Below are positions 9,884-53,320 of a stretch of 64,000 nt of DNA, piece after piece. The DNA is taken from positions 10,077,795-10,141,794 of the forward strand of contig OZ023265.1 of the NCBI GenBank assembly GCA_964006375.1. Reading direction: 5' to 3'. The stretch comes from Tillus elongatus. Taxonomy: Eukaryota; Arthropoda; Insecta; Coleoptera; Cleridae. The notes below the pieces were generated by a model. It saw only the letters and a program-made list of their open reading frames with translations. It had not been told where the DNA came from and did not search any database. The translations under genes and the position numbers were made by a program. How positions within the stretch are numbered: the stretch's first letter is position 1; each line of letters opens with the position of its first letter.

Positions 9884-12800
9884 TTATCGCTTAGTATAAT
9901 ATCTTACCAGATTGCTTGTGTTGAAGCATCCCCTCGGCGTCGCCGCCCCGCCCGAGTTGCTGCTAATCTCATATGCGTTAGGATGCACTATCTTCGTTAC
10001 CACAAACGGTCCCTCATATAGCAAGCTAAACTTATGTGTCTGGCCAGTGGCGGAGCACGAGGGTGTGTTTAGTTTAAGGAGCACTACATCCCCGACTTTA
10101 AAAGTGAGTGTAGGTTTCTTCTGTTGCCTCTTTCTCTGTTCTGCCATTTTCTTAAGGTGTGCATGCACACGACTATTTATTTCTTGCGTTGACAGGCGGC
10201 TCTCGGATACATAGTCCCTTAACACAGAGTCCAGAGACAATTCGGGCTTTCGTCCCGTAACAACGTAACTCGGGGGCAGGGACGTGCTCGTATGTGGGGT
10301 AGAATTGAAACAATTTTCCACATTGGAGATATACCGGGCCCAGGAGGAATGACATTCGTTGCAATAGGCCCGAAAGAACCTGCCCAGCTCCCGCATGTAC
10401 CTCTCAGCAGGGTTTGAGCTGGGATGTCGTATCGATGAGAACACTGGTTGAATGTCCATGGCCCGCAGAGCGTCTGTCCAGCGAAGTGATGTAAACTGGG
10501 TCCCATGGTCTGACAGGATCCGTTCCACCTTCATTACACGGCTAAAACCATTCCGTAAGCACTTTAGTGCAGCAGCGGTGGTAGCTCTTCGCAAGGGAAA
10601 CAGCTTGACAAACTTGGAGAAGATATCAACCATGAGAAAAATGTACCTAAACCCGCCCTCAGCTGTGGGAAGGGGTCCGAAAAAATCCACCGCGACCATC
10701 TCGCCGGCTTTGCTTGTAATGATGGGCTGCATTATGCCTTCAAAATTTCGATTCCTCCGTTTCGTCTTTTGGCATAAATCGCATCCTTTAAGCAGACGTC
10801 TCACGTGGTCCTTCATGTTCTTCCAGTGAAAAGCCTCACGCAGCACTGCATATACCTTAGATGGACCAAAATGGCCCAATTCAAAATGGTAGTGCCACAC
10901 AAGCCTTTCACGCAAGTCATCCGGTGTTTCAATCGTGTTGACTCCGCGAAAGTTATCTCGGAAAAGCAACACACCGTCCTCCATTACGTAGCTATCTCCA
11001 CTATTACCCAGCTGTGTGTTACCATCCTGATTACTTTCCTTTGCTAATATTATTTCCCTTATCCTGGCGTCCTGTCTTTGCAACTCCCTTAGCCGACGTA
11101 GGTCCCCTTGTAGTAGCGGCGTATCGTCGACCGCAAACGTGGCAATTGTTACTTGTCCTGTCTCTTGGATGTTCTCTGTCTCAGAAGCTGGATTTCTCGA
11201 AAGAAAGTCAGCCACCTTGTTCTTGCTGCCTTGTATATGCTCGACACTTAAATCAAATTGTTGCAGAAACAACTGCCACCTTAGCATTCTGTCGTTGGTG
11301 AACTTACAGTGTTTCAAGAATGTTAGTGCCTTGTGATCCGTTCTTACGGTGATTTTATTTCCCAACAGGTACACCCTACATTTTTGCAACGCATACACAA
11401 TTGCCAGTAACTCTTTTTCCGTGGTGGTGTAGTTCAGTTCAGGCCCCTGAAGGCTCCGACTCAGAAATGCCACTACACCAACTTCCCCATTTGGCTGTGG
11501 TTGGTATAACACTCCGCCTAGGCCATAATACGAGCTGTCTGTGTCCAGAATAAACTCCTTAGTGAGATCAGGGTGAATAAGTACCACACTCTCGATGAAT
11601 TTCTCTTTCAATTTCTGAAAACACATCTCCTCTTCCTTACCCCATGCCCATCTCACTCCTTTCTTGAGCAAATGTCTCAAACCACGGGTATGTTCACTGT
11701 AGTGTGGACAAAAGCGCCTATAAAATTGACATAGTCCTAGGAAACCGCGCAGCTGCTTCACATTCCTTGGTGCAGGAAACTGTCTAATGGCCACCAATTT
11801 TTCTTGGTCCATCCGGATTCCGGCAGGTGTCAGAACGTGGCCAAGGAATGGCACACTCTCCTTAACAAAGTTTGATTTCTCTAAGTTGACCGTCATTCCT
11901 CCACTCAGGAGCTTCTGAAAGACTTGCGCCAAGTGTATTAGGTGGTCAGAGAAGCTCTCGCTGGCAACCAGCAAGTCGTCAATGTAATTTACCGCAAAAG
12001 AGCGTACATCCGGCCCGAGAACAATATCCATGCACCTGCTGAATCCACTCGTTGCCGTCTTAAGTCCAAAAGCCATAACTTTATAAACGTACGTGCGACC
12101 GTTGTATGAAAATGCCGTGCAGGCTCGACTCTCTGGTGTCAGTGGGATTTGCCAGTATGATGATACCAAATCAATGCTCGAAAGATACTTGCAGTTATGG
12201 AATCGTTGAAGTAACTCCTCAGTTCTAGGTGGAGCCTCCATATCGGCCACTATCTTCTCATTGATGGCCCTTGCGTCAAGACATATTCGGATGTCCCCAG
12301 ACTTCTTCTTCACAACAGTCATGGGACTGCAATAGGGAGACGCTGCCCTTTCAATTACGCCCATCCTTTCCATTTCGGCCAATTTCTTTTCTACCATCGG
12401 TCTCAAGGTGAATGGGATAGGATAGCTTCGCCTCATTACCGGCTCATCGTCCTTGAGTTTCAGCTGTTGCGTGTAGAGGTGCGTTAGACCGGGTCTATCC
12501 TGGAATGCCTCCGAATATTCGAGCAGTAGCTGTCTTAAGAGTTTCTTTTCGGCTTCCGGTAAGTGAGCTGTGGCTGACTTCTCTTTGATCAACATCTCTT
12601 TGCTCTTACATTCGAGAACGAGACATGTCGCAGTGTCTTCGGATGTTCGTTGCATGATTCCTATGCTGTTAGCCGTGTTGCTTGACCTTATCGAGACTGG
12701 TACACATACCACGCCGTTCTCACCCTGTATTGTCAGTTCGTGTTCCTCCAGTGACAGGACACACTTGTTAGTGACAAGCCAGTCAATACCTAATATCAAT

Positions 12801-13354
12801 GGCCTCACCAGTTCTGGAATGACGAGACAGCAAACTTCGTAACTTCTGCCCCCTATTTGCATCGTGAGAAACATCTGGCGGGTTATCCGTCTTGACTTCT
12901 TGCTAAACGCCCCTTGTATCTGCAAAGACTTCAGCGGAAGCACAGGTACGTGCTGCATCGTCTTTTGGAGTCGGTCAGCCAGTTCCTCGGAGATCGCATT
13001 GACCTCAGCGCCCGAGTCAATGAGAGCAGCGATCTCCTCATTGCCGATCTGAACAGTAACCTCCGGCAGTCGAAATGTGTTGGGTTTTAGAATTGATTGA
13101 GCAGACAAATGTGCGATCGTTGGCTCATGCCTACCCAGATGTAGTGTGCCTCTCACATTTACCGTATTTATCGGATCTAGTATGCCCTGTTGAAATTTAC
13201 CCAGTCCATTCCAATCCTCCCATCCCATTTTACGTAACAATCTGTAACCCCTATTGTGCACGGACAGTCTCCTACTGATAGAGGTACCTGTGGGCCAGGG
13301 CTGTGAGCAAGTCGAAGAAGGTGGCCCATCTAGTTCGACTCGTTGGAGTTTCCC
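9884..13354 (-). CDS. pol: Gypsy Pol (G-patch, PR, RT, RNase H, integrase)
   Basis: Polyprotein that copies the element and integrates it. The frame is open from 13396 but has no ATG near its start (the codon at 13259-13261 is GTG). It overlaps the end of gag in the -1 frame and is best explained by frameshifting at 13348-13354. Numbering from the GTG codon: a G-patch-like stretch at residues 5-31 (KMGW...GLGKFQQG...PI), aspartic protease with DSGA at 82-85 and LGIDWL at 157-162, reverse transcriptase with YIDD at 426-429, RNase H acidic residues near D573, E615 and D642, an HHCC finger at about 790-830 (CDLC), integrase D859, D918 and E953, and a YEGPF (GPY/F-type) module near the C-terminus. 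No chromodomain and no stop inside the frame. The length of about 1,125-1,160 residues is normal for Ty3/Gypsy Pol. Confidence 0.95.
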   Translation of the reverse strand, partial: GKLQRVELDGPPSSTCSQPWPTGTSISRRLSVHNRGYRLLRKMGWEDWNGLGKFQQGILDPINTVNVRGTLHLGRHEPTIAHLSAQSILKPNTFRLPEVTVQIGNEEIAALIDSGAEVNAISEELADRLQKTMQHVPVLPLKSLQIQGAFSKKSRRITRQMFLTMQIGGRSYEVCCLVIPELVRPLILGIDWLVTNKCVLSLEEHELTIQGENGVVCVPVSIRSSNTANSIGIMQRTSEDTATCLVLECKSKEMLIKEKSATAHLPEAEKKLLRQLLLEYSEAFQDRPGLTHLYTQQLKLKDDEPVMRRSYPIPFTLRPMVEKKLAEMERMGVIERAASPYCSPMTVVKKKSGDIRICLDARAINEKIVADMEAPPRTEELLQRFHNCKYLSSIDLVSSYWQIPLTPESRACTAFSYNGRTYVYKVMAFGLKTATSGFSRCMDIVLGPDVRSFAVNYIDDLLVASESFSDHLIHLAQVFQKLLSGGMTVNLEKSNFVKESVPFLGHVLTPAGIRMDQEKLVAIRQFPAPRNVKQLRGFLGLCQFYRRFCPHYSEHTRGLRHLLKKGVRWAWGKEEEMCFQKLKEKFIESVVLIHPDLTKEFILDTDSSYYGLGGVLYQPQPNGEVGVVAFLSRSLQGPELNYTTTEKELLAIVYALQKCRVYLLGNKITVRTDHKALTFLKHCKFTNDRMLRWQLFLQQFDLSVEHIQGSKNKVADFLSRNPASETENIQETGQVTIATFAVDDTPLLQGDLRRLRELQRQDARIREIILAKESNQDGNTQLGNSGDSYVMEDGVLLFRDNFRGVNTIETPDDLRERLVWHYHFELGHFGPSKVYAVLREAFHWKNMKDHVRRLLKGCDLCQKTKRRNRNFEGIMQPIITSKAGEMVAVDFFGPLPTAEGGFRYIFLMVDIFSKFVKLFPLRRATTAAALKCLRNGFSRVMKVERILSDHGTQFTSLRWTDALRAMDIQPVFSSIRHPSSNPAERYMRELGRFFRAYCNECHSSWARYISNVENCFNSTPHTSTSLPPSYVVTGRKPELSLDSVLRDYVSESRLSTQEINSRVHAHLKKMAEQRKRQQKKPTLTFKVGDVVLLKLNTPSCSATGQTHKFSLLYEGPFVVTKIVHPNAYEISSNSGGAATPRGCFNTSNLVRYYTKR
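13291..13354 (-). promoter_or_regulatory. -1 ribosomal frameshift signal between gag and pol
   Basis: Seen on the element strand: the slippery heptamer G GGA AAC (plus-strand 13348-13354) lies in the correct gag phase, encoding Gly-Asn nine codons before the gag stop. A 5-nt spacer (13343-13347) follows. Then come stem 1 CGAGTCGAA / TTCGACTTG (13334-13342 with 13308-13316, one G-U pair) and stem 2 TGGGCCA / TGGCCCA (13322-13328 with 13291-13297), interleaved in the order S1-S2-S1'-S2', which is the topology of an H-type pseudoknot. Slipping by -1 enters the open pol frame. X-XXY-YYZ heptamers 5-9 nt before a pseudoknot are the established form of -1 signal; use here is inferred. Confidence 0.85.
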
Positions 13355-14427
13355 GACGCCGGTGTAAACTGTATGGCGTTTACATGGCGAGAATGTCTAT
13401 TTTCCGGAGCGGGAACATGGCGAGAATGTCTATTTTCCGGAGCGGGATAAGGCGAAGCTCGGGCAAGTCGCGTATGGTGGACCCGCACGCGCTCGTCTCG
13501 GTTTAACCTCATTTGGGAATTCTTTCGGAAGTTCACAATGTCTTCCTGACATTTTAGGAATTCAGCCGCCTTGGTCAGGGATGCCTGACCCGTCAAATGC
13601 CACAGCGACTGAACTTGCACCGGAAAGTGGCGCATGAGTTGTTCCACCAAACTCCCCTCTGGGATTGGGGTGGTGAGGAGCCTAGCCAAACTAACATAGT
13701 AGGCGAAGTGTTCGGACATGCTATATTTGTCTGACCAAACGGTCGTTTGTATGAGCTGTCTAAGCTTGTCTTGTTCGAGCGAGGACCAGAAAGTGTTGAG
13801 AAAGTCACGGCGAAAGTCTGCGAACTCAACCCACTGTGTACTATATATGTACGCCCAGTTCCTAGTTGGGCCCTCAAGACACCCTAAAACAATGTCGAGC
13901 TTTTGTGAATCTGGAGTACGCGTCTTGGTGAAGTACCGAGAGAGATCCTCCAGGAAATGAACAGGATTCTCCTCCCGGGGACTGGAAAACTTTGGAGGTG
14001 GCTCAGGATGCGAGACCACTATCTGGGAGGGAGGCAGAGATACTGTGGGACTTCGGTCACCACGGGAAATGCCCTGAAAGTTCTGCGTGTTTGCCCTAAT
14101 TTCACTTCTTAGGGTTTCAAAACCTTCTCGAAATGATCGAGACTGCTGCTGCAGCTCGAGCGACATCTCCGTGAATGTGTTAATGCCTTGTGACAGAATC
14201 TCGCGTTGTGTTTCATATGCAACCGTTTGTCTTTCTAATAGAATGTCAAACATTCCTGCCATTAAGTTACCTTCTCTTGGTGCGCTTCTTGGTGACGCCA
14301 TCGTGGCCTGGTCGTGGATACCAATCTCTCCTTGGCCTTCCTCTAGACATGCCTCCCCAATGACCAGAGAGGCCCCACTTGTCTCGCGTGACTTGTCGTT
14401 TGTGTTCTCGTTTCCTGAAACAGGCAT
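13330..14427 (-). CDS. gag: Gypsy Gag capsid protein
   Basis: A 365-residue structural protein, with ATG at 14425-14427 and TAG at 13330-13332. An N-terminal part with helical segments (LLERQTVAYETQREILSQG) precedes a retrotransposon-gag capsid-type domain at about residues 155-300, recognisable from HFLEDLSRYF, the LEGPTRNWA block, FRRDFLNTFW and KLRQLIQTTVW spacing. The C-terminus has a duplicated 11-residue unit (PAPENRHSRHV twice) and is His/Arg-rich, but I see no CX2CX4HX4C zinc knuckle. Its end overlaps pol by 67 nt in another frame and carries the frameshift signal. Confidence 0.88.
   Translation of the reverse strand: MPVSGNENTNDKSRETSGASLVIGEACLEEGQGEIGIHDQATMASPRSAPREGNLMAGMFDILLERQTVAYETQREILSQGINTFTEMSLELQQQSRSFREGFETLRSEIRANTQNFQGISRGDRSPTVSLPPSQIVVSHPEPPPKFSSPREENPVHFLEDLSRYFTKTRTPDSQKLDIVLGCLEGPTRNWAYIYSTQWVEFADFRRDFLNTFWSSLEQDKLRQLIQTTVWSDKYSMSEHFAYYVSLARLLTTPIPEGSLVEQLMRHFPVQVQSLWHLTGQASLTKAAEFLKCQEDIVNFRKNSQMRLNRDERVRVHHTRLARASPYPAPENRHSRHVPAPENRHSRHVNAIQFTPASGNSNESN
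13385..13451. repeat. 33-bp tandem duplication in gag
   Basis: Two adjacent 33-bp units, each containing GGCGAGAATGTCTATTTTCC, encode the duplicated His/Arg-rich unit at the Gag C-terminus. The size preserves the frame. Confidence 0.9.
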
Positions 14428-21897: not shown

Positions 21898-21900
<3 letters not shown>

Positions 21901-22020
21901 CAGAAAGATTTCCGCGGTCTTTAATGTGAGACATGCTTGGTTCTCGGGTTAAACCGCGTCCAGAATTTATGGAAACTCGACGTTTCGGCTCCTGTTTTGG
22001 AGCCATTTTCAAGAGGTAAC

Positions 22021-22370
22021 GGAAATATGTAAGGACACTCTAAGGCCTCAATCTGCCTACTCCTTAGAGTGATGAACAAAGGTGGGTAAAGGAAATATGT
22101 AAGGACACTCTAAGGCCTCAATCTGCCTACTCCTTAGAGTGGCGGACAAAGGTGGGCAAAGGAAATATGTAAGGACACTCTAAGGCCTCAATATGCCTAC
22201 TCCTTAGAGTGATGGACAAAGGTGGGTAAAGGAAATATGTAAGGACACTCTAAGGCCTCAATCTGCCTACTCCTTAGAGTGGTGGACAAAGGTAGGTAAA
22301 GGAAATATGTAAGGACACTCTAACGCCTCAATCTGCCTACTCCTTAGAGCGGTGGATAAAGGTAGGTTGG
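22021..22370. repeat. 70-bp hairpin repeat, five units (left array)
   Basis: Units begin at 22021, 22091, 22161, 22231 and 22301 (GGAAATATGTAAGGACACTC). Each contains a 10-bp self-complementary stem, CACTCTAAGG ... CCTTAGAGTG, with a loop of about 16 nt. The fifth unit carries CTCTAACGCC, which weakens the stem. Confidence 0.95.
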
Positions 22371-24195
22371 GTTGTTGTAGAACGATTACGGGGCCTCAAT
22401 CTGCCTACTCCCCAAATCTCGCCGGAGATCGTCTGTGAGGTCTCAGTGTGTTCAACCCTAGGCCTCAGAGAGATCTGGCAGTTCGTTGCAAGTCTTGTCT
22501 TATATATGTCGTTCCGCCTACCTGTTGCGTCATCAGTGAAAGTAGTGGGGTCACCGTCAATTAAGTGGGGGGCTTTGGTCACGGTATCTAGAAGAGGATT
22601 AAGAGGGTCACCGGCAGTTGTTGAGGCAGATAATGATGCAACAAAATTGTCTGTGGAATTCATTTCCCTTTTGTGTGTTTGCAAAGAAGATATAATAGGT
22701 TTCCAAGTAGTCGGAAGGCGAAGACCATCATCTATCTTATTTAAACAATCGGGACGTTTTTCAATCTCGATTGCTTCGCGGATAATTCTCGTTTTAAAAT
22801 TGTAAACCGGTGCTATTGTTTTGGCATTATCGAAGTCTATTTTGTGCCCTGTATGAATTTGATGCATGGCCAGCGCCGATGAGGGGTCGGATTTTCTAAC
22901 TGCGAGGGTTTGTTCGTATATTCTATTGTGGATGCGTCTGTTTGTTTGTCCTACGTAAGTTCGAGAACAGTCGGAACAAGGAATTTCGTAAACTCCGTGG
23001 GATTCGTTTGGAATCGTATCCTTGGGAGTTTTTATAAGATTTGACAGTTTTTGGTCTGTTGTGAATACGGTTTTGATATTATGGGTTCTGAAAATTCGGC
23101 TGATTTTGTCGGTGACACCCTTAATGTATGGTAAAAAAACGCTGTGTGTTGTTGTGTGGACGCTGTTTGTTCTTGTTGTGGTGTAGTGGTTTGTTGTTGT
23201 GCGTTTCTAATGTTCCGTAGTATGTGATTGTTGTCGTATCCGTTTTCTAGCAATGTCTGTCTAAAAAAGTTTAATTCTGTCTGTTTGTTTTTGTTGTCTG
23301 TTAGTCTAAGGGATCGTGTTACTAATGTTCGAACCACAGAATTTAGTTGCGATGGGTGATGGTGAGATTGGGCGTTAAGATACCGGTTAGTGTGGGTTGG
23401 TTTTCGGTAGACAGTGTAAGAAAATCCTCTGACTGGGTTTTTAGTGATGCGTACATCTAAGAAAGGCAAAGAAAAATTATTTTCCATTTCCATGGTGAAC
23501 TGGATTTGGGGGTTGATCTTATTTAGGTAAGAAAGGAATTCGTCTAGAGATTCTTTGCCGTGTGGCCAGACAGCGAAAATGTCGTCAACGTATCTTAACC
23601 AACACGTTGGTTTAAGTTGGGATGAATTGAGAGCTTGTGTCTCGAAGTTTTCCATGAAAATGTTGGCCAATGCAGGAGAGAGGGGTGAACCCATTGGAGT
23701 ACCTCGAACTTGTTTGTAAAATTTGTTTTGAAAAAGGAAATAAGTGTTAGATGTGCAGTGTTCTACAAGAGCTAAGGTATCGTGGGAAATTTTGTGTTTA
23801 TTTTTGAGAATGTCAAGGGTTTCAGATAGAGGTATATTGGTGAATAAGGAAACTATATCAAAGCTAACTAGGATGTCGTTTTGAGAAATGGTGTTGTTTT
23901 GAAGAAGGTCGATGAAATGGGTGGAGTTTTTGACATAGGATCTAGCGTTTTCTACTAATGGTTGGAGAGTTTTGGCTAGATGTTTTGCAAGTTTTTGTGT
24001 GGGTGAACGGTGGGCACTTACGATAGGGCGAAGGGGAATATCAGGCTTATGGATTTTCGGAAGACCATATTTTCTAGGGATGCGAGATGATTTTTCGCGG
24101 GGGATTAGTTCTTTTTTGAGGTCAGGATTGAGTTGGGAGTTGGCAGATTGAGGCCCCGTAATCGTGCTACAACAACCCAACCTACCTTTATCCAC
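22337..24195 (-). pseudogene. PLE reverse transcriptase / GIY-YIG endonuclease, one frameshift
   Basis: PLE polyprotein that nicks the target and reverse-transcribes there. The RT part (24195 to about 23140) has the early block YGLPKIHKPDIPLRPIVS, motif A SFDIVSLFTNIPL, motif B RGTPMGSPLSPALANIFM, the catalytic YVDD and LPFLDVRITKN, all intact. The endonuclease part lies in another frame (about 23150-22700), with HGVYEIPCSDCSRTYVGQTN as the GIY-YIG core and following Arg/His/Glu positions. The frames are separated by a 1-nt shift around the run of seven A at 23133-23139, which could be a real mutation, a sequencing error or a frameshift site. Both predicted ends run into the terminal arrays, so the true start and stop are uncertain. 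Confidence 0.88.
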
Positions 24196-24535
24196 CGCTC
24201 TAAGGAGTAGGCAGATTGAGGCCTTAGAGTGTCCTTACATATTTCCTTTACCTACCTTTGTCCACCACTCTAAGGAGTAGGTAGATTGAGGCCTTAGAGT
24301 GTCCTTACATATTTCCTTTACCCACCTTTGTCCATCACTCTAAGGAGTAGGCAGATTGGGGCCTTAGAGTGTTCTTACATATTTCCCTTACTCACCTTTG
24401 TCCACCACTCTAAGGAGTAGGCAGATTGAGGCCTTAGAGTGTCCTTACATATTTCCTTTACCCACCTTTGTTCATCACTCTAAGGAGTAGGCAGATTGAG
24501 GCCTTAGAGTGTCCTTACATATTTCCTTTACCTCT
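24170..24535. repeat. 70-bp hairpin repeat, right array (inverted)
   Basis: Five units at 70-bp spacing (ACATATTTCC at 24238, 24308, 24378, 24448 and 24518), the reverse complement of the left array, with the same CACTCTAAGG / CCTTAGAGTG stem. Confidence 0.95.
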
Positions 24536-24615
24536 TGAAAATGGCTCCAAAACAGGAGCCGAAACGTCGAGTTTCCATAAATTCTGGACGCGGTTTAATC
24601 CGAGAACCAAGCATG

Positions 24616-24985
<370 letters not shown>

Positions 24986-28385: not shown

Positions 28386-30606
28386 CACTATGTGAAAACT
28401 GGAACCTGTGATGAGCACTAATAAGTACACTTGGAGAACACCCAAATCACCACAACACATATTTCAGAGACCTTACGATCGTTTCGTTGACCAAGTCAAC
28501 ATCTTCAGAGGAAGAAAAATTCTAACATAAAAAACTAGATCTCGTATATTTATATCGCGTCAAAGAAAACGAACTAGTCCGAAGGAAGGTTGTCGTCCAA
28601 GAACGATCGTTTGTTTATTGCGCAGTGAAACAGGTCGGAGACCTGCTTTAATCTTTTGGTCGGCAAATTTATGACCCTTATCTAATATAGGTTTAAAAAG
28701 GACCGGCGTTCTTTAAAGAAACAGCACGTTTCCTTTCGATCTAGAACTTTACAATGTGGATATTGGTTTATGCCGATAAAGACATCTGCTGAGATAAACA
28801 ACATAAACTCAAATCATCTCTTTTAAAAATAGAAAACTAAAACCCAGATGTCTGTCTCACCGTGTTACCTTTAACAAAGGAAAAATAGTTCAACTAAAAT
28901 ACTACACAAAAACTAAATATTGATTTTAATTCTACTTAAAAATATTTATATTGACTACATAGATACAAAATCCGAACAGGTATTTAAATCAAGAAAAACA
29001 TAGTGATTAGTATATGTATAAACCGGTCGAGTTATTGACCATAATTTACTTTCTACCAGACTAATTATGAGTATTTAAGCGGTCAAATGCAAAGAGCAAA
29101 CAATGGGCTAGAAATTACAGGTGGCGCACGATTTAATGAAGTTTTGTTCTTAATAGACTTTAATATAAAAATACTTTCTAATGAATCAAGCATAGTTTGA
29201 CGTCTAACATTTTTGACAAGTTTCAAAGTTTCTTTGTCAATGTGGTGATTATTATCCCATATATGTTGTGCCACACAAGATTTGTCTACCGTACCATATC
29301 GTAACTGTGCGAGATGTTCACGAAATCTGGTGGCTGTGTTTCTCCTAGTTTGGCCCACGTATTTAAGATCACAATCTTTGCAACTAATCTCATAATTTCC
29401 GGACATTTCAGTGACTTTGTCTTTGTCTTTCATATTACCCAACAAATTTTTTAAATTACTTTTCGTCGAAAACGTCAAATGTAAATCGGCTTTCTTAAAA
29501 ATACTTTCCAAACCCTTTGTGATTCGTGGTTCATAAGGTAAACAAACAAATTTTTTCTCGATTTTATCATTCTTAAATATCGTACATTCAGATATCAACT
29601 TCTTTGTTCTGTGTTTGTTAACTAATTTGTCTATTAAACCATCCGAGTAACCGTTATATCTCGCCACATGTTTTATGTATTTTAATTCTGTATTAAATCT
29701 ATTTTTACTCAACGGAAAATTTATCAATCTATTTACTAAGAAATTGAATCTTGTGTGGCACAACATATGTGGGATAATCACCACCACATTGACAAAGAAA
29801 ATCTGAAACTTGTCAAAAATGTCAGACATCAAACTATGCTTGATTCATTAGAAAGTATTTTTATATTAAGGTCTATTAAGAACAAAACTTCATTAAATCG
29901 TGCGCCACCTGTAATTTCTAGCCCATTGTTTGCTCTTTGCATTTGACCGCTTAAATACTCATAATTAGTCTGGTAGAAAGTAAATTATGGTCAATAACTC
30001 GACCGGTTTATACATATACTAATCACTATGTTTTTCTTGATTTAAATACCTGTTCGGTTTTTGTATCTATGTAGTCAATATAAATATTTTTACGTAGAAT
30101 TAAAATCAATATTTAGTTTTTGTGTAGTATTTTAGTTGAACTATTTTTCCTTTGTTAAAGGTAACACGGTGAGACAGACATCTGGGTTTTAGTTTTCTAT
30201 TTTTAAAAGAGATGATTTGAGTTTATGTTGTTTATCTCAGCAGATGTCTTTATCGGCATAAACCAATATCCACATTGTAAAGTTCTAGATCGAAAGGAAA
30301 CGTGCTGTTTCTTTAAAGAACGCCGGTCCTTTTTAAACCTATATTAGATAAGGGTCATAAATTTGTCGACCAAAAGATTAAAGCAGGTCTCCGACCTGTT
30401 TCACTGCGCAATAAACAAACGATCGTTCTTGGACGACAACCTTCCTTCGGACTAGTTCGTTTTCTTTGACGCGATATAAATATACGAGATCTAGTTTTTT
30501 ATGTTAGAATTTTTCTTCCTCTGAAGATGTTGACTTGGTCAACGAAACGATCGTAAGGTCTCTGAAATATGTGTTGTGGTGATTTGGGTGTTCTCCAAGT
30601 GTACTT
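28386..30606. mobile_element. Fold-back Penelope-like element with 12-bp target duplication
   Basis: The 3' part of a PLE present as two inverted arms, about 28425-29275 and 29754-30605, around a 478-bp centre (29276-29753) that is single copy. The direct repeat AAAAATCATGTT flanks the whole unit (28374-28385 and 30607-30618), so the inverted structure seems to have arrived as one insertion. Each arm ends in a PLE terminus with the motif CTGAAGATGTTGAC-TTG-GTCAACGAAACGATCG (plus strand about 30518-30551, mirrored at 28480-28513). Confidence 0.88.
29083..29753 (-). pseudogene. PLE linker and GIY-YIG endonuclease, 5'-truncated
   Basis: The C-terminal part of a PLE protein on the minus strand: thumb/linker (NFLVNRLINFPLSKNRF, RYNGYSDGLIDKLVNKH), the FVCLPYEPRITKGLESIFKK block, then the endonuclease core SGNYEISCKDCDLKYVGQTR with RFREHL and HIWDNNHH, and a C-terminus ending SSPLFALCI. 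G-N-Y replaces the usual G-I-Y. The frame stays open past 29753 only because it runs into the inverted arm. The RT domain is missing. Part of this frame is mirrored on the plus strand at 29755-29946. Confidence 0.88.
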
Positions 30607-31265: not shown

Positions 31266-31764
31266 TTAGAGTCGTAAATATTAATTTTCTATTCCAACAA
31301 CCTGAAAAAATGGTTCAATTTGAGAAAGTGATGAGTTAATGATGTTACTATTCAAAATAATTTCAACCCAAATCCGATTAATTAATTCTCACAAGTTTTT
31401 AGGATTACAACAACTACAGTTCAGTTCCTTGAAAAAGAAATATTTCTTTTAACTAACTACTTTTACTTGCAATGAATTTCACTTTGATCGAATAACCTGC
31501 TCTGGGTTTTATTACGGAGACGTCAATCGCAATTCACGAGAAACTAGACGTCTCTACCATGAATCTTTTTCAAATTGTCGATTACAGTTTCTCTTAAATT
31601 ATGCAAAGGTCCATCGCGAGTTACGTGAAAAAAAAACCTTTCAAATCAAATCGCCCAAGAACTGAGATAACCGAGTGTGTTGAAAAGTAGATCTTAAACG
31701 CTGTGCAAAATAACACCGGGAGAAGTACTTGAAAATTATGAAGATTTGGAAAATCTTCACGCTG

Positions 31765-31995
31765 CCATCATTTGGCGGTTTCTGTGTGAATAGCTTCTTC
31801 ATGGATATCAACGTATGCAGCGTTAACCGCAATAGGATTTTTTGTCATGAAGAAGTTTTTACACATCCTCAACATTCTGTGATGTTGGCTTCTGAAACAG
31901 GCGTAAATGGATTTTTTAATTTACACAACAAAGACATTTAGCAAGAGAAAAATCTTCATGCAATTTAACAAGGGCGACACCAACATCAAGTCTCG
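31765..31995 (+). pseudogene. Mariner transposase fragment (left part of split relic)
   Basis: Diverged copy of 35755-36010. The plus strand reads FGGFCVNSFFMDI, then with frame changes NLHNKD before the region that precedes NVWAGIIG in intact relatives. The sequence ends at AAGTCTCG (31988-31995), which reappears at 33497-33504 followed by the next part of the transposase. The relic was therefore split by the PLE between them. Confidence 0.7.
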
Positions 31996-32044
31996 TAATA
32001 AGTACACTTGGAGAACCCAAATCACCACAACGCATTTTAAAAGA

Positions 32045-32085
32045 CCTGACGATCGTTTCACTAACCAAGTTAGCGTCATCAGAGG
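32045..32085 (-). ncRNA. Hammerhead-like ribozyme motif in PLE terminus
   Basis: On the minus strand: CCT / CTGATGA / C / GCTAAC-TTG-GTTAGT / GAAAC-GATC-GTC / AGG. The boxes CUGAUGA, GAAA and GUC are present, stem II is six pairs (one G-U), stem III is ACGAUCGU (palindromic, only two pairs in cis) and stem I is at least CCU/AGG. An extra base sits between the CUGAUGA box and stem II, unlike the canonical hammerhead, so activity is uncertain. Hammerheads in PLE termini are established. Confidence 0.6.
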
Positions 32086-32504
32086 ATGAAACATTCTAAA
32101 TACTTAAAAAACTAACATCAACTTATATACCGGATCTCAGGTAAAGATATCGAACCGAGATGAGACACTACTCGTAGGCAAATTCCAAAGTGTAATGTAT
32201 TTTTATCGCCGGACCAGGTCTTTGCGCCATCCCTACTGCTTTATCTAAAATGTGACCATCTGTAATATTCTTGAGAAAGTTCAACGACAGCTAAATTAAC
32301 GATTCCTTTGGCGGCAATAACTGTATACTTATGTTATCGGTAAAACGTGCCGAAAACGTGGGAGTTTTATTTAGCAAAGCCATCGATCAAGTGACTCGTA
32401 ATTGGCGCTGGTGAAGTGTTCATACATTTTTTGTTGTAACTATATTTCGCAACATATACGCTCTCGAACCCATTTAGCTGTCCTGGTTTTCTAACATTTT
32501 TTAT

Positions 32505-33415
32505 TCATTTGAGATTATCTTTATCAACGTGATGATTATTATCCCAAATATGTCGGGCGACGGCAGACTTATCTACAGTACCGTAACGTAATTGGGATAT
32601 GTGTTCTTTGAATCTGATTCCAATCGATCTTTTTGTTTGTCCGACGTATTTGAGATTACAATCTTTACAACTAATTTCATAAATTCCCGACATTTTGTTC
32701 ATGCTATCCTTGTCTTTTGGATTGCCTAGCAAGTTTCTAAAGGTATTTGTTGTGGAAAATGTTAGCTGCAAGTCGACTTTTTTAAAAATGCTGTCTAGAC
32801 CCCTCGTGATTCTAGGTTCAAATGGTAAACAAACAAAGTTTTTTTCCGATTTTTCTTTTCTGAACGTCGTTGATTCCGTCAACATTTTCTTTGTTTTCTG
32901 TTTGTTGATTAATTTTTCCACTAGGCAAGCAGTGTATCCGTTATATTCGGCCACGTTCTTAATATAATTTACTTCTTTGGTATATCTACTTTTGTTTAAA
33001 GGAAAATTAATTAACCGATTTACTAAAAAATTCAGACTGGCCATTTTTTGTGCGTACGTATGATGTGAGTCGCTCGGCATGTAGCTTAAGGTAGTGGTTT
33101 CTGTTCTATAGACATCAAATTCTAAAGTGTCTTAATTTTTGATAACTAGTACATCTAGAAAGGGTAGTTTATTATTAATTTCTAATTCGTGGGTAAATTT
33201 TATAGAATCAAATTTATTGTTTAATTTGGCAATAAAATCTTCTATTCCGCAAATGTTTGTGTTAAACACCACGAAAATATCATCCACGTAACGACACCAT
33301 ACTCTAGGAAAATAACCACTTTCACTTTCAAGATCTGTTTCAAATCTGCTCATGAAAAGGTCTGCAATAAATGGCGATAGCGGATTACCCATTGCCGTGC
33401 CTTGTGTTTCTTGAA
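32505..33415 (-). pseudogene. PLE RT C-terminal part and GIY-YIG endonuclease
   Basis: From 33392: MGNPLSPFIADLFMSRFETD (motif B), RVWCRYVDDIFVVFN (catalytic YVDD), INNKLPFLDVLVIKN, then a stop at about 33132. After it comes the thumb/linker (NFLVNRLINFPLNKSRY) and a GIY-YIG core with the canonical spelling SGIYEISCKDCNLKYVGQTK. It ends near NNHHVDKDNLK at 32505. The N-terminal half of RT is absent, so it is not functional. Confidence 0.88.
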
Positions 33416-33496
33416 AAAATTCATTGTTGAATTAAAAAATATTTTGTTTGATGCAAAGGTTTGTTAGAGTTAAATACTCTTTGCAGACACTTAGTG

Positions 33497-33572
33497 AAGT
33501 CTCGTTGAAGGTTTGGGCAGGTATTATAGGTCATGGTTTAATTGAGCCAAGTTTTTACCACAACATTGAATG
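33497..33572 (+). pseudogene. Mariner transposase fragment (middle)
   Basis: Encodes VWAGIIGHGLIEPSFYHNIE on the plus strand, the conserved block between the first and second catalytic acids of insect IS630/mariner transposases. It continues, after the retrozyme-like cluster, at 34907. The uninterrupted equivalent is at 36010-36110. Confidence 0.75.
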
Positions 33573-33604
33573 TAAGGCTATATGGATTCTCACCACAATT
33601 AGAA

Positions 33605-33645
33605 CCGTAGACCAGTTTCGCTCTAATTAGAGCTCGTCAGTACAG
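33605..33645 (-). ncRNA. Hammerhead ribozyme motif 1 (core intact)
   Basis: Minus strand: CTGTA-CTGACGA-GCTCT-AATT-AGAGC-GAAAC-TG-GTC-TACGG. Boxes CUGANGA (N=C), GAAA and GUC are present. Stem II is five perfect pairs adjoining the box directly. Stem I is five pairs including one G-U. Stem III is two pairs in cis with a 2-nt loop, so cleavage may need a dimer. Confidence 0.8.
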
Positions 33646-33923
33646 AATACTAATTGCAGCGAAAATACACCTATGAAGTAATACGGCTATGGCAGCCAGC
33701 CTTCCAAGACTAAGTGAGATATAAGACGCGAAGCACGTGCCGCTATCTCGTTGCGGAACCAAGTAGTGTATTGTCACAGCAGCTCCAAATAACACAGAAT
33801 GTTAAAAAATAGAGACTGTATACAACCAACTAACAATTTAGTAAATTGCCAGGCCTGACCCATTTCTACCCTAATATAGAGACAAAGTATGTAAGGCTAG
33901 ATGCATTCTCACCACAATTAGAA

Positions 33924-33964
33924 CCGTAGACCGGTTTCGCTCCAATTAGAGCTCGTCATTACGG
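33924..33964 (-). ncRNA. Hammerhead motif 2 (core mutated)
   Basis: Same layout one unit (319 bp) away: CCGTA-ATGACGA-GCTCT-AATT-GGAGC-GAAAC-CG-GTC-TACGG. The first core base C is A, which should abolish activity. Stem II keeps a G-U pair, stem I is five perfect pairs, and stem III is the palindrome ACCGGT. Confidence 0.75.
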
Positions 33965-34211
33965 CATACTAACTGCAGCGAAAATACACCTATAAAGTAA
34001 TGGCTATGGTAGCCAGCCTTCCACAACTTGTGGTTGTATACAGTCTCTATTTTTTAACATTCTGTGTTATTTGGATCTCCCGTGACAACATACTACTTGA
34101 TTCCGAAACGAGGTGGCGGCACGTGTTTCTGGTCTTACATCTCACTTAGTTTTGGAAGGCTGGCTACCATAGCCATTACTTTATAGGTGTATTTTCGCTG
34201 TAGTTAGTATG

Positions 34212-34252
34212 CCGTACTGACGAGCTCTAATTAGAGCGAAACCGGTCAACGG
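34212..34252 (+). ncRNA. Hammerhead motif 3, opposite strand
   Basis: Plus strand: CCGTA-CTGACGA-GCTCT-AATT-AGAGC-GAAAC-CG-GTC-AACGG. All core boxes are present, stem II is perfect and stem III is the palindrome ACCGGT. Stem I has an A-A mismatch next to the core, then four pairs. Confidence 0.78.
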
Positions 34253-34465
34253 TTCTAATTGTGGTGAGAATGCATCTAGCCTTACATACTTTGTCCCTAT
34301 ATTGGTGTAGAAATTGGCCAGGGCTGACAATTTACTATATTGTTAGTTGGCTGTATACAGTGACAACATACTACTTGGTTCCGCAACGAGGTGGAGGCAC
34401 TTGTTTCGTGTCTTACATCTCACTTCACTTATGTAAGACTCGATGCATTTTCGCAACAATTAGAA

Positions 34466-34506
34466 CCGTAGACCGGTTTCGCTCTCATTAGAGCTCTTCA
34501 GTACGA
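34466..34506 (-). ncRNA. Hammerhead motif 4 (core intact)
   Basis: Minus strand: TCGTA-CTGAAGA-GCTCT-AATG-AGAGC-GAAAC-CG-GTC-TACGG. The box is CUGANGA with N=A, a tolerated position. Stems I (one G-U) and II are complete and stem III is ACCGGT. This is one of the two best candidates for activity. Confidence 0.8.
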
Positions 34507-34906
34507 CATACTAATTGTAGCAAAAATGCACCAAAAGTAATACGGCTATCGTATAGCCAGTCTTAAAATACTCAGTAAGTGGTGGACGTGCCGCCACCTA
34601 GTTGCGGAACCAAGTAGTATGTTGTCACGCCAGCTCCCAATAACACAAAGTGTTAAAAAAATAGAGACTGGATACAGCTAACTAAGAATTTAGAAAATTG
34701 TCAGCCCTGGCCCATTTCTACCCCAATATAGGGACAAAGTATGCGAAAATGCATCGAGTCTTACATACTTTGTCCCTATATTGGGGTAGAAATGGGCCAG
34801 GGCTGACAATTTTCTAAATTGTTAGTTAGCTGTATCCAGTCTCTATTTTTTTAACACTTTGTGTTATTTGGAGCTGGCATGACAGCATACTACTTGGTTC
34901 TCAGTT

Positions 34907-35060
34907 AACATTGAATGGTTTGAACTTTTTTTAACTTTTGGTAGATGTTTTAGCGATATGCAAAACGTAACTTCGAGCCACTGTCAGATAATGTTGTACG
35001 TAAATAAGGGAACCGGCTGATTTTGCTTTGGTGATTAGATTACACATTTTCGTAATTAAA
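34907..35060 (+). pseudogene. Mariner transposase fragment (right part of split relic)
   Basis: Begins with the second copy of AACATTGAATG and continues the sequence seen uninterrupted at 36078-36200 (GGTTTGAA, CGATATGCAAAACGTA, GCCACTGTCAGATAATGT). Stops are frequent. Confidence 0.65.
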
Positions 35061-35342
35061 CGACAGCGAGAAAACTGTTAGAGATCGAGAAAATTTTCCT
35101 ATCTTAATTTTCCAAGGGCTATCTTATTGTGATAACTGATTGTTGGTACCACGAGTACCAAATTTGTTACCGAGTTAGTGCCATTTTTACAATTTTTAAG
35201 TTGGTACATCATGACAGAAAAGTGATACGAAGGAACCGTAGTAAATGTAACTTCTAAACATTTTTAATAATACATGACATAGTCGACAAAATAAAATTAA
35301 TATTAAAAACAGAAACCGCATTAACTAGAAGCGGTAAAATAT
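35061..35342. other. No recognised gene
   Basis: Unassigned AT-rich stretch between two mariner relics; no coding or repeat signature that I can name. Confidence 0.4.
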
Positions 35343-35745
35343 CAAGTTAGTATTCTAAAAGATGCTGAAAATATCCAACTTTCACCCACAAATAAACAGT
35401 CTGCTTGTTAACTCTTATAACATTATGGGAGGGTTGAGGTGTTATTTCTGAACAAACTTCGTTAATACGATGAGACAGTTCATATAATGCCCACAAACTG
35501 TCCTCAAAACTATGAAATTTACATATCTACGGAAAATAATCAAGGGATGTGAGGTCCAGCGAGCGAGCTGGCCACTCTGTTGGACCTCGACGTCCAATCC
35601 ACCTACTCCGATAAGTATCATCTAAATAATTTTGCAGCCCCCGAAAATAGTGTGGCCGAGCACCACCTTGCTGAAATGTTACATCCAAGTAAAACTCATG
35701 TGGGTTCTGGACAAGAATCTTATTGATATTGGGAGGGATTTTCAC
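35343..35745 (-). pseudogene. Mariner-type transposase C-terminal fragment
   Basis: Minus strand: NPHEFYLDVTFQQGGARPHY (second catalytic Asp region, the usual D read here as G), SRWIGRRGPTEWPARSLDLT (third acid region, usual SPDLTPLD), then FHSFEDSLWALYELSHRINE and a C-terminus ending near 35343. A stop near 35527 interrupts it. It lies head to head with another relic starting at about 35750. Confidence 0.8.
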
Positions 35746-35751
35746 TCGTCA

Positions 35752-36985
35752 TCATTTGGCGGTTTCTGTGTGAATAACTTCTTCATCCATATAACTTTCA
35801 ACGTGTGTAACGTTGACCGCAAAAAGATTTTTTGTCATGAAGACGTCTATATACTTGATCCCAGCAAGAAAGAATTTTCACCTTCTCAACATTTTGTAAT
35901 GTTGGCTTATGAAGCAGGATTACATTGTTTATTTAATTTACACAACAAAAACATTTGTCAAGAGGAAAATATGCATGCAATTTAAGAAGCGTGACACCAA
36001 CATCAATTTTCGTTAAACGTTTGGGCAGGTATTATCGGTCATATTTTAATTGAGCCAAGTTTTTACCACCAACATTGAATGGTTTGAAGTTTATCGACTT
36101 TTTGATAAATGTTTTACCGATACACATGCAAGACGTAGCTTCGCGCCACTGTCAGATAATGTGGTACATGCACAAGTGAACCGGCTCATTTTGCTTTGAT
36201 GATTCGAAATTTTCTTATTCAAACATATCAGAACAGACAGATGGGTAGATGTTTTTTTTAATTTCAACAACACACCACGAGGGCTTACAGCCTAAATACT
36301 ATCGTACCGTGGGTGTTAACAAGGAGGAAAGAGGCAGCTTGTTAATTCTGGACTTGAAGGTTTGGAGGTTCGGAGGAGAAGGAAAAATATGTGCCGGCAA
36401 TGAATTCCACAACTTGGAAGTCCTCGGGACAAAAGAGCGGGCATAACAAGATGTTCTATGCCTGGTGACCTGGACAGTAAAAGGGTGCATTCGCTCTGTT
36501 CCCCTGGTAGAACTGTTGGGGGCAGCAGGTGGGGGAACTATGGAGGAAAGCTCCTCTGAGCAGTGCCCGTGCAGATATCTATAAAAGAGAGAGAGGTCAT
36601 CAACGGCACGTCGGTGGGCAAGGGATGGCAGCCTTTGGGTGAGTGTAGGGTCACCGATGAGACGTATAGCTCTCTTTTGAATGGAGTCCAGGATAGCGAG
36701 TGTAGAGGCGGCAGCGGCACCCCAGATGTGGGAGCAGATGTGGAGTAGTTCGGCTAGATCTCCGAATCTGAACCCCCTTGATTTTTACATGTGGTACCAA
36801 TTGATATCGATAGTCTACTTTAATAAGATTCCCGACTTGGAAACACTACAATCCTGTATTTAAAACGGTTTCAGTCAGATAAGGAAGATGGGTAACATTT
36901 GTAAAAGAGTTCGGCAGTCGCTTGTGAGATGTCTGCATGTTTGTTTAACTGAAAATAATGGTCATTTGCAACATTTATTGTAAGG
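35752..36985 (+). pseudogene. Mariner-type transposase relic split by a LINE tail
   Basis: Plus strand: FGGFCVNNFFIH, FNLHNKNICQEENMHAI (equivalent of the NLHN-HVW-DENPHA block), then NVWAGIIG near 36015-36050, continuing to about 36250. It resumes at 36740 with ARSPNLNPLDFYMWYQLISI (third acid region, D read as N) and a short C-terminus to 36985. Several stops. The interruption at 36262-36737 is LINE sequence in the opposite direction. Confidence 0.75.
36262..36737 (-). pseudogene. LINE 3' fragment (CR1/Jockey-like)
   Basis: The last approximately 475 bp of the LINE family seen at 50670-53320, reversed. It encodes the C-terminus from the LDSIQKRAIRL region to SRINKLPLSSLLTPTVR and includes the 3' UTR (ACCACGAGGGCTTACAGCC). 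One frame change. A short T run at 36252-36259 may be the decayed poly(A). Severe 5' truncation is typical of LINE insertion. Confidence 0.85.
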
Positions 36986-45766: not shown

Positions 45767-46012
45767 GTTGCAATACACTGTAACCACTTTTAAATATACA
45801 GTTTATTTGTTTGCTATAATTTCAGTGATTTGTTATTCGGTTACGTGGACTGCAGTTTCGAACCGTCCCGGTTCATCTTCAGCGCGCTACTGACTATGAC
45901 CACCCAGGAGCGATCATAGTCAGTCGCGTGCTGAAGATGAAACTGCAGTCCACGTAACCAAATAACAAATCACTGAAAGTACAGCAAACAAATAAAGTAT
46001 ATATATATTTCG
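45579..46012. repeat. Direct repeat, second (AT)n and small palindrome
   Basis: GGATTGTTGCAATACACTGT occurs at about 45584 and 45762, separated by GTAT repeats and (AT)n (45690-45759). The second copy leads into a palindrome (arms about 45795-45897 and 45898-46005) built on TTTATTTGTTTGCT ... GTTACGTGGACTGCAGTTTC. The left arm holds a stem (GAACCGTCCCGGTTC, plus 45855-45869) missing from the right arm. Confidence 0.8.
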
Positions 46013-46015
46013 TCC

Positions 46016-51365
<5,350 letters not shown>

Positions 51366-53320
51366 GGACGAAATGCGGGATTACTTTTCCTCATTTCCAT
51401 GGGCGTCTGTCTGCTTCTCTCATCCTGACCCCTCTGATATCTCACAAAACGTCACCGAAATTATCCAAGCCGGCATGGAATTATTTATTCCACGTACACA
51501 GAAAACCTCTTCAGCCACTCAAAAGCCCTGGTTCTCTAAATCCTGTGACAAGGCCAGACTTGAAAAGGTCAAAGCTCACAAAACGCTTCTACACAATCCC
51601 AGTCAAGAAAATCGTCAAGCATTCAACGACGCAAGAAACCGCTATGTCCACATTCTTTCTGAGGCAAAAAACTCGTTTAATAACCACATCAAAAACAAAG
51701 TCCTCTCAAGCTCCAACGGCGGCAAACCCTTCTGGACTCTTGCTAAGTCTATTGGGAATAATTTCTGCAAGAGCACGTTCCCACCTCTTGTGTCAGGTGA
51801 TGAAATTGTTTCTACCGCCCTGGGAAAGGCTGAACTTTTTGCTTCGTTGTTCGCCGGAAATTCTACTCTCAACCCACCTCCAAATGTTCAACCACCAACA
51901 GTCCCCAATGTCGCGCATAAAATGACTGATATCATTTTCCAAACTAAAAAGGTACGAAAGATGCTCTCTTCTCTTAATACCAGGAAAGCCTAACTACTAA
52001 AATTCCTTGAAAAACACAGTCTAATCCACGACAGGCAGTATGGATTCCGTCAGCGCAGATCGACTGCCGACCTCCTTTCCTTTGTCACCCATTCTTGGAA
52101 CAAGTCTATGGAACAACACGGTGAATCCCAGATTGTTGCTCTAGACATATCCAAAGCATTCGACCAGGTCTGGCACGCAGCGCTGCTTAATAAACTTCCG
52201 GCCTATGGCCTACCACCAAAACTTTGTACCTGGACAGCAAATTTCCTCTCCAACAGGAGCATATCTGTTGTTGTGGATGGCCATTCCTCTAAACTGTATC
52301 CAATTAATGCAGGAGTTCCTCAAGGTTCAGCTTTAGCCCCTACTTTGTTTCTTCTCCACATCAATGACCTCCTCTCTAGCACATCCAACCCAGTTCACAG
52401 TTACGCGGACGACAGCACCCTCCACTCAAACATACAATATTCTAAGCCTGTCTCTTTAGCCCAATTAGATGAGGATCGCAGACTCATGGAGGGTTCTGTC
52501 TCCGTAGACCTCCAAAAAATATTAGACTGGGGAAGTAGAAATCTTGTACAATTCAACCCCACCAAAACTAAGTCTTGCTTTCTTTCTCACAAGAGATACA
52601 GCAGCCCCAGACCCATCACACTGAACAACCAAGTTATTCAAAGTAATGAGTCCTTTTCTCTTGTTGGCATTACTGTGGATCGAAATCTTAATTGGCACCA
52701 ACATGTTACATCAATTGCAGAAGCGGCTGCTAAGAAATTGGGTTTCCTCTTCCGGGCTCGCAAATTCTTTTCACCAACTAATCTCTATACCTTATACACT
52801 TCACAAATAAGGCCAAACCTCGAATACTGCTCCCACATCTGGGGTGCAGCTGCCGCTTCTACACTCGCTATCCTGGACTCCATTCAAAAGAGAGCTATAC
52901 GTCTCATCGGTGAGCCTACCCTCACCCAAAGGCTTCCATCCCTTGCCCACCGACGTGCCGTTGGTGACCTCTCTCTCTTTTATAGATATCTGCACGGGCA
53001 CTGCTCAGAGGAGCTTTCCTCCATAATTCCCCCACCTGCTGCCCCCAGCAGATCTACCAGGGGAACAGAGCGAATGCACCCTTTTAACGTCCAGGTCACC
53101 AGACATAGAACATCTTGTTATGCCCGCTCTTTTGTCCCGAGGTCTTCCAAGTTGTGGATTTCCTTGCCGGCACATGTTTTTCCTTCTCCTCCGAACCTCC
53201 AAACCTTCAAGTCCAGAATTAACAAGCTGCCTCTTTCCTCCTTGTTAACACCCACGGTACGATAGTATTTAGGCTATAAGCCCTCGTGGTGTGTTGTTGA
53301 CATAAAAAAAAAAAAAAAAA

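Follow-up and report, generated by a model that had tools for sequence, protein, structure and literature searches.

Head-to-head retrozyme insertions with two preferred ends in the genome of the beetle Tillus elongatus

Introduction

Non-LTR retrozymes of metazoans, as portrayed in the main text of PMC7229834, are units of about 300 bp with low GC content and no coding sequence that carry a type-I hammerhead ribozyme; they range from single copies to long tandem arrays, have target duplications of more than 4 bp, and coexist with PLEs. How such animal retrozymes move was open. The same text calls PLEs "a strong candidate" for the helper, pointing out that both carry hammerheads, both occur in tandem, and the two coexist. 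The plant LTR retrozymes (PMC4918200) are likewise non-autonomous and hammerhead bearing, with a circular RNA as the proposed intermediate, but they have type-III hammerheads, LTRs, and, by the summary in PMC7229834, 4-bp duplications, none of which was seen here.

Penelope/Poseidon-type PLEs resemble the element described below in other respects. The relevant sections of PMC3846280 report their head-to-head inverted ends and suggest self-priming on an antisense template. From what is described of them, these PLEs also share with our element duplications (about 8 to 13 bp in PLEs), two reverse transcription start sites, a tail at one end, and a hammerhead near the 3' end. They differ in that PLEs encode reverse transcriptase (RT) and GIY-YIG, whereas the retrozyme codes for nothing, and in the spacing of the start sites, which is about 31 to 36 nt in the PLE A family of this genome and about 180 nt in the retrozyme. 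In PMC11167929, purified anole PLE protein nicked and extended both strands, with internal starts; the PLE tail was the stretch between two RNA start sites, and the start sites used in vitro did not differ between strands.

Here we analyze a retrozyme cluster in a 64,000-nucleotide stretch of DNA (the window) and its relatives across the host genome. PMC7229834 describes tandem repeats, and the word "inverted" has 0 occurrences in its main text, whereas head-to-head pairs were the commonest form among the insertions that we sampled. Among 25 listed papers of 112, none that used the word "retrozymes" contained "head-to-head"; within the literature searched, mostly open access, the head-to-head, two-ended retrozyme insertion appears to be new.

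Results and Discussion

Layout of the cluster and its target site

The cluster and its surroundings comprise the features below, in which P1 and P2 are the two unit positions where outer ends gather.

31741..31996, plus: target mariner, left part; old copy, ends in the 9-bp duplication of PLE B, AAGTCTCGT
33497..33561, plus: mariner between PLE B and the retrozyme, 65 bp, from PLE B to TSD1
33562..33572, unstranded: target duplication TSD1, left copy, AACATTGAATG
33573..34023, minus: retrozyme arm S1, U-type, about 1.4 laps; outer (sense 3') end at P1
33615..33640, minus: hammerhead core of S1a (first lap), intact
33907..33977, minus: hammerhead of S1b; core C3 reads A
34024..34030, unstranded: S1/S2 head junction, 7 unassigned bases CAACTTG, within a 6-bp palindrome
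34031..34425, plus: retrozyme arm S2, U-type; outer end at P2; 39-nt internal deletion near 34360
34217..34242, plus: hammerhead core of S2, by core pattern match
34418..34429, unstranded: TSD2, proposed left copy, TCTCACTTCACT; decayed, 9/12 against the right copy
34430..34743, minus: retrozyme arm S3, V-type, one lap; outer end at P1
34476..34501, minus: hammerhead core of S3, intact
34742..34900, plus: retrozyme arm S4, V-type, about 0.5 lap; stops at unit position 136-137, not at P2
34899..34910, unstranded: TSD2, proposed right copy, TCTCAGTTAACA; overlaps TSD1
34907..34917, unstranded: TSD1, right copy, AACATTGAATG
34918..35400, plus: target mariner, right part, from alignment with the paralogue
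35738..36207, plus: paralogous mariner with both sites empty, from alignment

The insert runs from 33573 to 34906 with AACATTGAATG at both borders, as the original prediction had it. The 11-bp duplication announced there is present, but the final ATG of its left copy is unit sequence too, so that its length is 8 to 11 bp. The old mariner said to be continuous across an empty site was also found: the only further copy of AACATTGAATG lies, once, at the empty paralogue (36071-36081), and the flanks joined across the retrozyme insertion are 84% identical to 36010-36207. With PLE B also removed, the mariner is 78% identical to 35738-36207.

The insert contains, as foreseen, only copies of a noncoding, retrozyme-like unit of about 319 bp with a type-I hammerhead. 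Its significant matches within the window all fall inside the insert itself, its longest stop-free stretch is 86 codons, and a unit of S1 measures 319 nt, one of S3 310 nt. The sense 3' ends point outward in both S1-S2 and S3-S4. The inverted joins are real as well (arms 33815-34028/34148-34361, 93%, and 34607-34743/34764-34900, 97%), and they do call for an explanation.

The explanation first offered was that S1 to S4 entered as one block and that the inverted joins are template switches within one reverse transcription. A single perfect 11-bp duplication does flank all four segments, and another minus-plus-minus-plus cluster, L021, lies within one 12-bp duplication. L021, however, has the same head junction twice and therefore looks like an internal duplication with a different history. 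In the window, S1-S2 already ends at P1 and P2, the two standard ends, and is thus complete, while S3-S4 belongs to another subfamily: U-type and V-type arms are about 80% identical, compared with 97% for S3 and S4. Genomic matches spanning S3 and S4 reach 92 to 96% identity (one is at 81%), higher than the 82 to 87% of the nine longest matches spanning the S1/S2 join. The bases beside S3 and S4 also fit a second duplication, TCTCACTTCACT (12 bases left of S3) matching TCTCAGTTAACA (right of S4) at 9 of 12 positions, a level found in 0.6% of random pairs, in a stretch that was chosen by eye. Given its position, its different subfamily, its higher genomic identity, and the fit of TSD2, S3-S4 would be a second, later insertion, and the cluster is probably two nested insertions, with a V-type S3-S4 that may have inserted later at the right border of an older U-type S1-S2. 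Insertion as one block seems unlikely to us, and template switching is not needed when the head-to-head pair is the commonest sampled form and its outer ends cluster at two fixed sites. The stop of S4 at 136-137 instead of P2 reflects either a deletion or another start.

Two simpler histories were considered and dropped. One was that S1-S2 is an error-free copy of one circle; S1a and S1b differ by 9%, which one circle would not give, and S1b and S2 share changes that are absent from S1a. The other was that S3-S4 is mobile as a fixed inverted form, other loci matching it whole. At L009 to L012, picked by their likeness to the query, the head junctions lie within about 20 nt of the S3/S4 junction, yet their sequence is different at each locus.

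The retrozyme unit and its hammerhead

The unit is 307 to 319 nt long with 41% GC, within the 150 to 450 bp and low GC content of retrozymes, and it occurs in tandem, neighbors on the same strand being spaced 304 to 309 in 32 of 33 cases. It encodes no protein, its longest stop-free run being 44 codons. The borders of the insert showed no direct repeat resembling an LTR, and the insert has no long open frame of the kind that encodes the RT and GIY-YIG of PLEs. Scans of viral_contigs and genome_contigs found nothing.

The hammerhead has the core CUGANGAG-helix II-CGAAAC, and its cleavage triplet is GUC. Helix III is minimal, and in predicted folds helix I is long and contains an internal loop; helices I, II, and III together give a predicted canonical type-I form. 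Cleavage after CGGUU was rejected, as it would leave a nine-base bulge; GAAACCGGUC^UACGG was kept and fits the canonical type-I form. The core pattern had one exact match and none in 100 shuffles. Rfam model RF02275 matched four hammerhead copies with E values of 0.0001 to 0.004 in a 1.7-kb search (23.9 to 28.9 bits, below its gathering score of 52) and of 0.0039 to 0.16 over the whole window; at Rfam gathering scores, no hammerhead in the window passes. Looser Rfam searches also gave miRNA-like hits, which we take for the S3/S4 hairpin.

Over 34 copies, 95.1% of cells in the hammerhead structure were paired, against 34 to 48% for slid versions. Agreement in the core and helix II is by construction, because the 30 genomic copies were picked by the core pattern and many of them by helix II as well; the two parts of helix I, which were not selected for, had 94.1% and 95.1% of cells paired. 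Covariation in these 34 copies was not above that of column shuffles. In the window, the cores of S1a, S2, and S3 are intact, with one change beside the cleavage site in S2, whereas S1b has lost C3 and is probably inactive, judging from its sequence.

Another reading takes the unit for a solo terminal repeat (pLTR) of a PLE and not for a retrozyme. PLE ends carry hammerheads too, and the pLTRs treated in PMC3846280 are found both in direct and in inverted arrangement, together with duplications. A 9-mer, TTGTGGTGA, is also common to the U-type unit and PLE 3' ends; we rate it as a weak link to PLEs, since it lies in helix I and is missing from the V and W units, which have TTGTTGCGA. The insert, moreover, matches nothing else in the window despite the several PLE 3' ends there, and the unit, which stands in tandem without coding sequence, has a predicted hammerhead fold in which helix I is long. 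On this evidence a solo pLTR is very unlikely.

Copies across the host genome

A search of the host genome (1.72 Gb, 30 contigs) found 16,489 exact hammerhead cores and 0 matches to the reversed pattern, which marks this noncoding RNA of 307 to 319 nt as very successful within one genome. Extrapolated from the first 7.5 Mb of contig C1, taken as typical, the cores would form about 8,900 clusters. Two samples were drawn. The positional sample took the first 100 cores by position, which, beyond the intact core, were not selected by likeness; it covers 34 of the 54 listed clusters, from loci L048 to L077 and L078 to L090, counts a stretch when a core is present, and, requiring the exact 26-base core, leans to intact-core copies. 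The similarity-ranked sample holds 42 stretches in 40 loci, 34 of them two-armed, with an inclusion limit of 150 bp.

Among the 36 hammerhead-bearing stretches of the positional sample, 23 are two-armed in the order minus-plus and 13 are one-armed (8 plus only, 5 minus only); plus-then-minus insertions number 0. Neighboring cores no more than 1.2 kb apart follow each other as minus-minus 19 times, plus-plus 14 times, minus-plus 13 times, and plus-minus 0 times. In these counts L054 and L055 may be inverted duplicates of each other, L078 and L079 are near-identical places 24 kb apart, and L077 and L090, the latter a long homogeneous array of at least 14 cores, extend beyond the stretch fetched.

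Two preferred outer ends and target duplications

The outer ends concentrate at two positions of the unit, P1 (…CTTA/CAT, a slash marking the end) and P2 (…CACTTAGT/), the classes being set at unit positions 312-319 or 1-12 for P1 and 172-198 for P2. The two samples together hold 57 two-armed insertions, and in 40 both ends are at these sites: 39 have one of each, none has P1 twice, and a single one has P2 twice, a division with a binomial P of 7e-11 under independent choice. The P2/P2 case is L054, the possible mirrored duplicate. Taken separately, the 23 positional two-armed insertions comprise 18 P1/P2, 0 P1/P1, and 1 P2/P2, with an end elsewhere in 4, and the 34 similarity-ranked ones comprise 21, 0, and 0, with an end elsewhere in 13, including the window cluster; an end away from P1 and P2 is thus seen in 17 of the 57. 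Counted by eye on printed junctions, 13 of 16 two-armed insertions have both ends about 10 nt or less from P1 and P2, the exceptions being L056, L073, and L085.

Target duplications were scored in 39 insertions, namely the 38 P1/P2 pairs in minus-plus order together with L021. Where duplications fix the junctions, these read …UAGUCUU(ACAU)/ and …CACUUAGU(GUUU)/. A duplication score of at least 8 was reached by 34 of the 39, compared with 2.8% of mismatched flank pairs (n = 1482), and a score of at least 10 by 29 of the 39, compared with 0.34% (n = 1482). The duplications are mostly 11 to 15 bp, beyond the 4 bp that retrozyme duplications exceed where they are present. A second copy with its own duplication, on which the original prediction had been staked, is therefore amply found. 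Larger coding elements that include the unit, which would have spoken against it, were not seen: between the duplications lies only unit sequence, the flanks of the sampled insertions being annotated in part. Some copies do sit in, or contain, PLE pieces as nested insertions (L021, L024, L078).

These ends bear on two further explanations. Satellite fragments or unit circles might have been captured as DNA, by ligation into breaks, and long homogeneous arrays such as L090 do exist. Preferred ends and duplications in 34 of 39 insertions, though, require a defined starting point and staggered cleavage, and capture at the DNA level is scarcely credible to us. Self-priming, in which the cDNA or RNA doubles back to serve as its own primer and yields a palindrome, agrees with the 6-bp palindrome at the S1/S2 junction, and the proposal made in PMC3846280 fits the palindromic PLE junctions treated there. 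Fold-back predicts arms in register from the turn, however, and what we see is two preferred ends with inner ends that differ. We regard it as improbable.

PLEs with the same form in the same genome

Four PLE insertions in the window can be compared with the retrozyme.

21898-24620, unstranded: PLE G, another type by sequence; tail of about 30 nt at the left end only, between (TA)n stretches
28386..30605, unstranded: PLE A, head-to-head inverted, tail at the left end only; 13-bp duplication TAAAAATCATGTT at 28373-28385/30606-30618
31997..33496, minus: PLE B, 5'-truncated; RT piece, GIY-YIG piece, minimal hammerhead, no tail; 9-bp duplication, in the same mariner as the retrozyme
about 62162-62258, unstranded: PLE D, short pair; inverted tail left, tail-less end right, 7-bp repeat at the borders

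PLE G has 70-bp tandem repeats in both of its inverted ends. Among the matches listed for the PLE A family, which comprise at least 40 ends (one of 41 matches, a 45-base piece, was left out), there are 7 clean pairs in head-to-head arrangement along with a multi-copy cluster, and in 8 of these 8 paired insertions one outer end has a tail and the other has none. In the multi-copy cluster, neighboring inner ends are also tail/tail, and 22 of the 40 ends have no partner within 8 kb among the matches listed. Two more short PLE pairs of the one-tail kind are at L057 and L078, the latter inside a retrozyme. The retrozyme likewise has two start sites, one for each outer end of the head-to-head pair.

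A shared end motif was also considered. The tails of PLEs A, C, and E have 5, 7, and 10 bases in common with the P2 stretch, values reached by 6210, 230, and 3 of 20,000 shuffles. The 1505 PLE tails were found with a pattern containing CACTTAGTG; of seven tail ends observed independently of it (A, C, D, E, and F in the window, plus L057 and L078), 2 have the full motif. An end motif common to PLE tails and the P2 stretch is only suggestive on these sequences.

PLE and retrozyme sequences also meet in other ways. At L078 (1780-2110) and L079, a retrozyme contains a short head-to-head PLE insertion bordered on each side by a copy of unit positions 238-251. At G000:C1:75618774-75618827, a PLE 3' end is joined directly to reversed retrozyme sequence, which may reflect a nested insertion or one of mixed PLE and retrozyme origin.

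A LINE might copy the retrozyme in place of a PLE, with inversion by twin priming. Twin priming inverts LINE copies, and as in the insertions studied here, two reverse transcriptions are joined inverted at one target. LINE-like open frames are present in the window at 50752-53265, the label being our own reading (Pfam had no match for a related piece at 36299-36784). In twin priming, however, the second start is incidental and internal and the RNA 3' end is left at one border only, whereas here both starts are preferred and both are at borders, with sense 3' ends at each, as in the PLEs of this genome. We give copying by a LINE little chance.

The template: arms, laps, and inner ends

Arm lengths and inner ends were taken from the 38 P1/P2 pairs in minus-plus order. 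Arms exceed 310 nt in 26 of 38 cases on the P1 side and in 17 of 38 on the P2 side. Of the 76 inner ends, 2 fall no more than 5 nt from the cleavage site, against 2.6 expected. These sequence features indicate that the template was not a cleaved linear monomer. At the heads, the two arms overlap by 0 to 5 nt in 24 insertions and by more in 4, and filler separates them in 10.

Within single insertions, laps can be nearly identical (0/960 differences at L064, 0/1812 at L077, and 14/31353 at L090), as can arms (0/285 at L075, 0/1449 at L077, and 3/756 at L064), pairs with fewer than 60 shared positions being skipped; the nearest other sampled locus differs from these insertions by 1.0 to 1.7%. 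At L060, in contrast, the arms differ at 11/497 positions and the laps at only 1/170, and the arms of L080 differ at 5/117, so that the arms need not derive from one molecule; perhaps two RNA molecules were used at one target in these cases. Older insertions differ more (laps up to 13/95, arms up to 7/72), for which age alone may account. From the agreement of laps and arms and its exceptions, the template would have been either circular or a multimer derived from a uniform array, with two molecules used in some cases.

A predicted helix joining P1 and P2

The circular fold of the W unit has a predicted energy of −107.5 kcal/mol, compared with −71.9 (SD 5.0) for 60 shuffles. In the predicted circular folds of W and V, P1 lies opposite P2 in one helix, AGUCUUA with UAAGACU; the U-type unit S1a does not form it in its minimum-energy fold. 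The cells of the helix were 92.9% paired, against 19 to 55% for slid versions, a share that is partly by construction, the copies having been picked by loose patterns at both strands. One of the helix pairs reads A-U in 20, G-C in 15, and G-U in 5 of 40 copies and is broken in none (the patterns allowed all four combinations there, and two of 42 copies, L039 and L040, were left out for a P2 stretch unlike the others). The covariation score was reached by 0 of 500 shuffles; it rests on this one pair, and, the copies being related, it may reflect a single compensatory change with a G-U intermediate. One of the seven pairs is unformed in 18 of 40 copies. We read the modeled helix as support, not proof. 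A helix joining the two start sites of PLEs was looked for and not found.

A proposed mechanism

At the level of sequence, then, the insertions have a head-to-head architecture, two preferred ends, target duplications, and arms of several laps, and the PLEs of the same genome have the same form. We think it likely that the element is a non-autonomous animal retrozyme whose uncleaved circular or multimeric RNA is reverse transcribed in the manner of PLEs, with both strands of the target serving as primers. A staggered break would be made in the target, and target-primed reverse transcription would start on both strands, as PLE proteins do, at RNA site P1 on one strand and at P2 on the other. 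Each RT would run a variable distance, often more than one round of the unit; the cDNA ends would be joined head to head, mostly with 0 to 5 nt of overlap, and filling of the stagger would leave the duplication, mostly of 11 to 15 bp. The copying enzyme may well be that of a PLE, and the template may be circular rather than multimeric. If so, the two-armed insertions point to PLEs as the long-sought helper of animal retrozymes, and their PLE-type signature can be counted in any retrozyme-bearing genome.

The use of one P1 and one P2 end in each insertion does not follow from the experiment with the anole protein, because the start sites there were the same on both strands. It would be explained if P1 and P2 are the two strands of one helix, as predicted. 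We put forward more tentatively, at somewhat less than even confidence, that the circle is a two-headed template, with a PLE dimer seated on the P1:P2 helix and both target strands primed at once. The two RTs, one per strand of the helix, may then chase each other round the circle. If true, the 39 of 40 insertions with one of each end would be the footprint of such a dimeric complex, and the PLE tail at one end only would be explained too; the one-of-each rule bears in any case on head-to-head PLE copies with an optional tail at one end.

Other features of the window

Three further features were noted. On the minus strand at 45882 is a hammerhead-like core with a helix II of 5 to 6 bp and GUC, unlike both the retrozyme and the PLEs by eye. 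At 46007-51374 is a perfect palindrome, with arms of 2684 nt at 100% identity and no spacer, that holds LINE-like open frames; it looks like an assembly or library artifact. Between 3006 and about 19000, a pol-like open frame (9884-13396) is flanked by repeats that are 100% identical where measured; they are spaced at 11,650 bp and are probably very long LTRs.
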